Of a DNA stretch of 64,000 bases, positions 21,628-51,248 are shown one piece after another. The DNA is taken from positions 1 to 64,000 of the forward strand of contig JAMPIE010000005.1 of the NCBI GenBank assembly GCA_023663135.1. The letters are read 5' to 3'. Numbering within the stretch: position 1 is the first letter of the stretch; every line of letters starts with the position of its first letter. Position numbers and translations under genes: made by a program. Origin of the DNA: Alloprevotella sp. (GTDB lineage Bacteria > Bacteroidota > Bacteroidia > Bacteroidales > Muribaculaceae). The notes beneath the pieces are model-generated. The model saw only the letters and a program-made list of their open reading frames with translations, searched no databases and had not been told where the DNA came from.

Positions 21628-21701
21628 TGACTCATACAGGATTCAAACCTGTAACCTTCTGATCCGTAGTCAGATGCTCTATTCAGTTGAGCTAATGAGC
21701 C
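21628..21701 (-). tRNA. tRNA-Arg (anticodon ACG), copy 2 of the transcript
   Basis: The minus strand folds as a 74-nt tRNA: acceptor arm GGCTCAT with ATGAGTC, anticodon stem TCTGA/TCAGA around loop CTACGGA (anticodon ACG, read as ICG after deamination), and T arm ACAGG-TTTGAAT-CCTGT. CCA is not encoded. It is identical over its full length to the copy at 21714-21787. Confidence 0.95.
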
Positions 21702-21713
21702 TCCTTTGTTGTG

Positions 21714-21787
21714 TGACTCATACAGGATTCAAACCTGTAACCTTCTGATCCGTAGTCAGATGCTCTATTCAGTTGAGCTAATGAGCC
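21714..21787 (-). tRNA. tRNA-Arg (anticodon ACG), copy 1 of the transcript
   Basis: Identical in all 74 nt to the copy at 21628-21701 and separated from it by 12 nt, so both probably come from one transcript. It lies directly downstream of a consensus promoter. Confidence 0.95.
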
Positions 21788-45400: not shown

Positions 45401-46852
45401 CTATTTCTTGACCGACACAGGCTTGAGCAGCCTACCCTCAGCCTTGAGGTAGTTGAGCACCGAGTAGAGCACTCCGTTGATAAAGTGACCCGATCGGGGG
45501 GTGGAGTAGCTGTTGGCTATCTCGATATATTCGTTGAGGGTCACGGCCACAGGGATGGAGGGGAAGCCCAGGAGCTCGGCTATAGCCGCCATCATCACCA
45601 CGATGTCCATAAAGGCCAGGCGCTCGGTGTCCCATTGCTCGGGGTTGATAAAGCGGTCAATAAGCCCGCGATATTCCTCGCGGTGGTTCACTACGTCGGT
45701 AAACAGCAGTGTGCCAAATTGCTCATCCTCTTTATCTTTATACATCGGGAGGAGATTGACATCCTTGCCCATATCCTCCGAGGAGGCAAATTTTTTGATG
45801 GTCTTGGTGACAAAGGTGCCCATGATCTCCAGGTCGTCGTTCCAGTATATCGACTTGCCTTCGAGGGCCTCAAGCAGCACGTCAGATGGCAATATCACCT
45901 TCTTGAAGAGCTCACGCCACAGGTTGCAGTCTTCAACCCACGTCGTGGCTGCGCCCGACATATAGTTGCGGTAGGTTTCGCTTTCAAGGATGGCATCGAG
46001 AAGGAGCTTGACGGTGTTGTCGTTGATGTCCCATTCTACCGCCTCCATCGAGGCATATTCATCAAGCTGTGGCTTTTCGCGCAAGCAAGCCACAAAGGCA
46101 TTGTCTATAAAACGGGTGTCGGGATAGAGGTCGGCCTGTGTGGGCATATACTTATGCTTGGCGGCATCAAGCCGGCGCTCCTGCAGGTCGGTGATCCTTA
46201 CGGCCAAGAGTAGCAACGAGTTGTAGAGGTAATACGCATTGTCGAGCGACCTCTTGAGCTCATCAAAGGCCTTGCCTCTCATCTCGCGGTTGTCGTTATA
46301 GGAATGGATTGTGGCGACCACCATCTCCACTCCCCGCTCATATCCGGCGAGGGTGAAGTCTGGCAAGGCGCGAGCAGCTGTCAAGAGAGCCTCATCTTTG
46401 GAGATTACGTTAAGGATGGCCCAGCTCCAGAAGTCTACGTCGCCCTGGAGTGTGCGCTCGCGCTTCCTCGAGTAGGTCTGAAATTCAGGCAGGTCAAGGA
46501 TGGTGTCAAGGAGGCTGTCTATGACGCTGTAAAAGACGGCCATGTCGCCGTCTACTTTGGCCGTTGCCACTCTCACTTGTTCGTCAAGGCTCAGAGCACT
46601 TCCAAGAATGCCGTTTGACAGTGCACTGATGCGCTTTATCTTGCCCTCAGCCTCCACCGACAGCTTGCCGGGCTTGCGCCCTGACAGGGCTTCAATCAGC
46701 ATTATCAGGTCAAGATATATACGATAGGCAAACCGGGAGTCGCGAGTGGCATCGGGACCCGGTGACGGCTGGATCTTAAACTCGTTGCGAGTAAGCAGAT
46801 AGGAATAGAGCATCTGCACCACCTTTATTCGTATCAATACACGATTAATCAT
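45401..46852 (-). CDS. nusB: Enlarged NusB-family antitermination factor with an internal repeat
   Basis: NusB binds boxA RNA with NusE/S10 and prevents premature termination, mainly in rRNA operons. Bacteroidales NusB is usually about 310 residues; this one is 483. Residues 1-28 (MINRVLIRIKVVQMLYSYLL) and about 195-483 cover the normal protein, including the C-terminal NusB domain (RLAFMDIVVMMAAIAELLGF, SIPVAVTLNEYIEIA, GHFINGVL). Residues about 40-190 are extra and resemble residues 205-357: the segment 110-187 aligns without gaps at an offset of 170, for example LLDTILD with LLDAILE and DFWSWAILNVI with NLWRELFKKVI. Its own consensus promoter lies upstream. Confidence 0.9.
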   Translation of the reverse strand: MINRVLIRIKVVQMLYSYLLTRNEFKIQPSPGPDATRDSRFAYRIYLDLIMLIEALSGRKPGKLSVEAEGKIKRISALSNGILGSALSLDEQVRVATAKVDGDMAVFYSVIDSLLDTILDLPEFQTYSRKRERTLQGDVDFWSWAILNVISKDEALLTAARALPDFTLAGYERGVEMVVATIHSYNDNREMRGKAFDELKRSLDNAYYLYNSLLLLAVRITDLQERRLDAAKHKYMPTQADLYPDTRFIDNAFVACLREKPQLDEYASMEAVEWDINDNTVKLLLDAILESETYRNYMSGAATTWVEDCNLWRELFKKVILPSDVLLEALEGKSIYWNDDLEIMGTFVTKTIKKFASSEDMGKDVNLLPMYKDKEDEQFGTLLFTDVVNHREEYRGLIDRFINPEQWDTERLAFMDIVVMMAAIAELLGFPSIPVAVTLNEYIEIANSYSTPRSGHFINGVLYSVLNYLKAEGRLLKPVSVKK

Positions 46853-51066: not shown

Positions 51067-51158
51067 GGCCCCGCGTCAATTCTCCCTGCCGCGGGGCCAG
51101 GCGTTTCTATGCCTCTAAAAAATGCAAGGGCCGTCATCGCGACGGCCCTTGCATTTTT
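51067..51158. terminator. Tandem hairpins with a strong bidirectional terminator
   Basis: GGCCCCGCG (51067-51075) pairs with CGCGGGGCC (51090-51098). It is followed by an 18-bp perfect stem, AAAAATGCAAGGGCCGTC (51118-51135) with its complement at 51141-51158, flanked by A- and T-runs so that it can act on both strands. Confidence 0.9.
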
Positions 51159-51176
51159 AACCTTAAATCTAATACC

Positions 51177-51248
51177 ATGAAAAAACACAGTGCAAATAAA
51201 TATTACACCTTTACAACATATCAACCACCAAATGGTTTACCCCTTTAG
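51177..51248 (+). CDS. Possible 23-residue micro-ORF upstream of the response regulator
   Basis: ATG to TAG encodes MKKHSANKYYTFTTY followed by QPPNGLPL. It starts with the Met-Lys-Lys common in small proteins and is A/T-richer than neighbours. It lies between a terminator and the -7 box at 51291, and no promoter of its own is evident. It may be chance; if real it could be a small protein or leader peptide. The remaining stretch up to 51383 holds that -7 box and nothing else I can assign. Confidence 0.25.
   Translation: MKKHSANKYYTFTTYQPPNGLPL

Follow-up and report, generated by a model that had tools for sequence, protein, structure and literature searches.

An enlarged NusB in Muribaculaceae with two diverged tandem copies of a Bacteroidia insert

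We have analysed a window of 64,000 nucleotides from an Alloprevotella sp. genome (Muribaculaceae; contig JAMPIE010000005.1, positions 1 to 64,000). An open reading frame on its minus strand encodes a protein of 483 aa, which the first-pass annotation had named NusB and described as enlarged by an internal tandem repeat. The name was confirmed by matches to PF01029 and TIGR01951 and by a Foldseek match of the core. PF01029 (the Pfam NusB domain) covered residues 371-465 alone (4.7e-20, 72.8 bits vs. a cut-off of 23.1). TIGR01951 (the NCBIfam nusB equivalog) scored 90.3 bits with the protein, barely over its cut-off of 88.35, and 87.4 bits in a six-frame search, slightly below it. The frame was the sole NusB of the genome (one match in a whole-genome search), in which genes for NusA and S10 (NusE) were both found. 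It is preceded by a gene for a TsaD/TsaB-type protein and followed by YajC and CoaE, with an unassigned 332-aa protein between the latter two. The genome assembly contained no 16S gene. The gene and the parts of its product were delimited as follows:

45401..46852, minus strand: nusB open reading frame, long form, 483 aa, ATG start (ORF list and translation)
46787..46852, minus strand: NusB helix 1, residues 1-22, MINRVLIRIKVVQMLYSYLLTR (conservation; predicted helix 4-21)
46277..46756, minus strand: module A, the extra copy, residues ~33-192 (hhalign match to module B, probability 99.3)
45767..46267, minus strand: module B, the common Bacteroidia insert, residues ~196-362 (hhalign match to the insert of short NusBs)
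46157..46351, minus strand: predicted unbroken helix in which the terminal helix of A runs on into the opening helix of B, residues 168-232 (AlphaFold)
45422..45742, minus strand: remaining NusB core, residues ~371-477 (PF01029 at 371-465; Foldseek)

Classic NusB, the form familiar in Proteobacteria, Thermotoga, Aquifex and Mycobacterium, is generally regarded as a minimal factor of ~140 aa. The protein studied here resembles it (PF01029/TIGR01951; PDB 1tzt, 1eyv, 3r2c, 3d3c) in its helix 1 with a basic start, its core, its core fold and its presence as a single copy, but two ~165-aa helical modules separate helix 1 from the remaining fold. Pfam gave no match to module A or to module B.

We have used hhalign to compare three alignments built from relatives, one each for module A (residues 24-195), module B (192-368) and the short-NusB insert. 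Module B matched the short-NusB insert with a probability of 100 and a score of 491. Module A matched both module B (probability 99.3%, score 123.4) and the short-NusB insert (99.2%, 119.8), whereas 40 column-shuffled controls reached 19.6 at most and the reversed control 17.7. Chance similarity was ruled out by these controls, and the profile comparison upheld the tandem repeat. A whole-genome search with a profile made of B and the short-form inserts gave two matches, B with 246.7 bits and A with 20.5 bits (E 4e-4). When 201 modules were merged into one alignment, A was offset from B by 170 residues in 127 columns and by 164 in 33 columns. This agreed with the gap-free match of residues 110-187 to 280-357 at an offset of 170 noticed in the first pass, with the 170 register reaching further than had been claimed, and the shorter stretch was consistent with the resemblance also noted then between a helix at 41-56 and residues 205-220.

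The AlphaFold2 model of the full protein (alignment of 53 relatives; mean pLDDT 89.7, pTM 0.77) pointed in the same direction. The predicted helices of A (82-89, 91-99, 122-128, 135-148, 154-161 and one starting at 168) were matched at an offset of 170 by helices of B (252-258, 261-269, 292-298, 305-320, 324-331 and 338), while the pair 105-119/278-289 had a start offset of 173 and the first helices an offset of ~164. Comparison of the helix borders showed that the helices of A reappear in B in identical order, mostly at the 170 offset. The predicted helix 168-232, which connects A to B, had block-mean pLDDT values of ~89-97. Modelled alone, module B reached a pLDDT of 92.5; a fold search found no significant PDB match for it, and a sequence search of known structures found no relative of the insert in the PDB. 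The core matched NusB of T. maritima, M. tuberculosis, E. coli and A. aeolicus with a Foldseek probability of 1.00, the target-normalised TM being ~0.6 and the E-values weak (~0.01).

Modules A and B are both all-helical and share a pairwise identity of just 15-17%, which would be compatible with a convergence of helical sequence. We regard such convergence as very improbable, since the A/B score is six times that of the best shuffled control, the register is colinear across 160 columns with one gap, the genome-wide profile search picked A alone besides B and the helix order is alike in the two modules. Profiles and model together show A and B to be tandem copies that have diverged.

The extra copy follows immediately on helix 1, where the first-pass annotation had placed it, with the module borders and the predicted helices in agreement. 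The same annotation had taken this copy for a second N-terminal NusB module, a description that had to be abandoned: the repeat unit is the ~165-aa Bacteroidia insert found after helix 1. Because module B is itself an insertion, the repeat is a copy of a lineage-specific insert and not of an N-terminal NusB domain. A duplicated core domain was likewise rejected, as A and the short-form insert matched the core region with hhalign probabilities below 1%.

NusB was surveyed in 149 genomes of the family, 139 of which had a match (138 complete and one contig-edge fragment). Named loci such as those of Paramuribaculum intestinale and Duncaniella place the family as Muribaculaceae. Long forms, of ~465-490 aa, made up 107 of the 138 complete matches and short forms, defined by the lack of module A, the other 31. 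The long NusB occurred in 20 of 30 genera of the family, with one genus mixed. L120 carried a C-terminal extension and L084 was cut at a contig end. The assembly of our genome is in 45 contigs, which would leave some room for an assembly or gene-calling artefact, namely a frameshift fusion of two genes. This explanation has a negligible probability, however, given that scores of separate assemblies have an uninterrupted frame of this 465-490 aa architecture, among them one titled as a cultured strain, Paramuribaculum intestinale DSM 100749 (L034). The extra copy is genuine, old and retained.

We have extended the survey to the order (198 genomes) and to the class (148 genomes). Among the matches listed from these genomes, none outside Muribaculaceae spanned the whole of module A, and nearly all of them started past query residue 170. 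The enlargement is a trait shared within a Muribaculaceae clade and not peculiar to this genome; it was absent from all matches listed outside the family. The length of ~310 aa that had initially been attributed to relatives in general applied to other Bacteroidia, but not to the protein's own family, mostly of ~465-490 aa. The single match with a clearly earlier start, that of G448 from profile position 107, crossed stop codons, and the open frame was just 316 aa.

Nearly all Bacteroidia have a single-insert NusB of ~310-330 aa, with the insert between helix 1 and the remaining fold. Helix 1, module B and the core of this type are homologous and colinear with those of the long form; module A is what it lacks. 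Insert-free NusBs of ~160-200 aa were found in families f110, f142, f146 and f151 of the same class:

L172:1163-1702, plus strand: insert-free NusB
L173:1030-1626, plus strand: insert-free NusB
L174:1415-1897, plus strand: insert-free NusB
L175:847-1383, plus strand: insert-free NusB
L177:917-1492, minus strand: insert-free NusB

These proteins represent either the ancestral state or a secondary loss of the insert.

Other Bacteroidia NusBs (L176, L178 and that of G178) are likewise expanded past ~310 aa, with added material that looks different from module A:

L176:1160-2383, minus strand, and L178:179-1315, plus strand: NusBs of ~370-400 aa from Bacteroidia families other than Muribaculaceae, carrying additional sequence of another kind behind helix 1
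L168:669-2648, plus strand (G178, same order): NusB frame of 660 codons, the C-terminal half being an extremely Asp/Glu-rich low-complexity tail

In a tree of the parts outside module A, a branch supported at 99/93 separated all long forms and one short form from the rest, and the minimum number of changes on the tree was two. The tree supports reading these as a single gain of module A and, probably, a single subsequent loss. The short form concerned was the following:

L129:304-1242 (G026; also L169), minus strand: intact NusB of 313 aa without module A, amid the long clade

In the tree it adjoins the long-form sisters L148 and L149 of the same genus. Its placement among the long forms had a support of 100/94, with an AU test that left the alternative unrejected (p 0.28). 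The nesting of this short NusB in the long clade suggests that A can be lost. In a tree of the modules, A sat on a very long branch, and the AU test of the timing of the A/B split gave p values of 0.19 and 0.42. Judged by its sequence, A may have an older origin, which the distribution alone contradicts. Taken jointly, a duplication and its single origin are nearly certain in our judgement.

The conservation of the parts differed strongly. Mean pairwise identity among the long forms was 86% in helix 1 (R4, R8, K10, Q13, L15 and Y16 being nearly invariant), 61% in the core, 48% in B and 32% in A, the fastest evolving among A, B and core. A agreed with the consensus at 16 of the 38 positions conserved in B and in the short-form inserts, most of the 16 being aromatic or hydrophobic; the B-consensus residues retained include A42, Y43, L45, Y46, L50, S121, Y124, Y127, D138, W142 and T181. 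The motifs of B at K234, P244 and N251 and at E331..S334..W337-N-D-D340..F347..K350 were mostly substituted in A. Module A has conserved positions of its own, at least 95% in F25, Y46, W142, G170 and T181 and at least 80% in R161, F166 and T167. This pattern fits a paralogous module that is structurally constrained and whose original surface would have been lost or replaced.

The first-pass annotation had suggested that the extra copy may add an RNA- or protein-binding surface to the antitermination complex. As the predicted fold is alike in A and B, A could act as a second binding surface like that of B, so that avidity for one partner or RNA would be doubled. This seems improbable to us, with the motifs of B at 234-251 and 331-350 mostly replaced: having lost most of the residues conserved in B, A is unlikely to be a plain second copy of its binding site. 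The same loss of B-invariant positions, the fastest evolution of the three parts and the species nested in the long clade that seems to have lost A would all be compatible with a neutral or scaffold remnant, tolerated in a permissive loop and conserved just for folding. We find this reading possible but doubtful, given that A is open and full length in 107 genomes of the family from 20 genera and itself has a set of near-invariant positions; both suggest selection beyond neutrality.

NusB and S10 (NusE) bind boxA in the rRNA leader, and the antitermination complex further comprises NusA, NusG, SuhB and S4 (PMC6614801, PMC4807359). NusB, NusA and NusG are on the essential-gene list of B. fragilis (PMC4072883). 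Co-enlargement of partners was considered and rejected: the open frames of NusA and S10 showed no size shift accompanying the long NusB. With helix 1 and the core being its most conserved parts, the long form would still work in antitermination. We consider it likely that the product of 45401-46852 is a housekeeping NusB enlarged in two steps. First, as comparison across nearly all Bacteroidia shows, a ~165-aa all-helical module came to lie between helix 1 and the remaining NusB fold. Second, the module was duplicated in tandem once within Muribaculaceae, the upstream copy A diverging afterwards. Helix 1 and the C-terminal core would still bind boxA RNA and S10. Module B would go on doing what the insert originally did, probably making a contact with pre-rRNA or with a further component of the antitermination complex. 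Module A, connected to B by one long predicted helix, would then be a diverged spacer or an extra contact and not a second B site; this mechanistic role is a guess, to which we give somewhat less than even chances. It is rather unlikely that A has acquired a new role in rRNA antitermination, as a contact to RNA polymerase, a ribosome-assembly factor or pre-rRNA. If it had, the Nus complex of Muribaculaceae would differ in composition or architecture from all those described.

The insert more than doubled the size of NusB in Bacteroidia, and its duplication enlarged the protein again in most Muribaculaceae. Our searches of openly accessible papers turned up no account of either the Bacteroidia insert or the long NusB. 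Long forms, short forms and one probable reversal within a single family offer a clean natural comparison for the role of the insert.

Two further features were observed elsewhere in the window:

51113-51188, minus strand: Rfam match to FopS, a paralogous Bacteroidetes sRNA family (66 bits, cut-off 56)
21628-21787, minus strand: two neighbouring tRNA genes of equal score, with 12 bases between them
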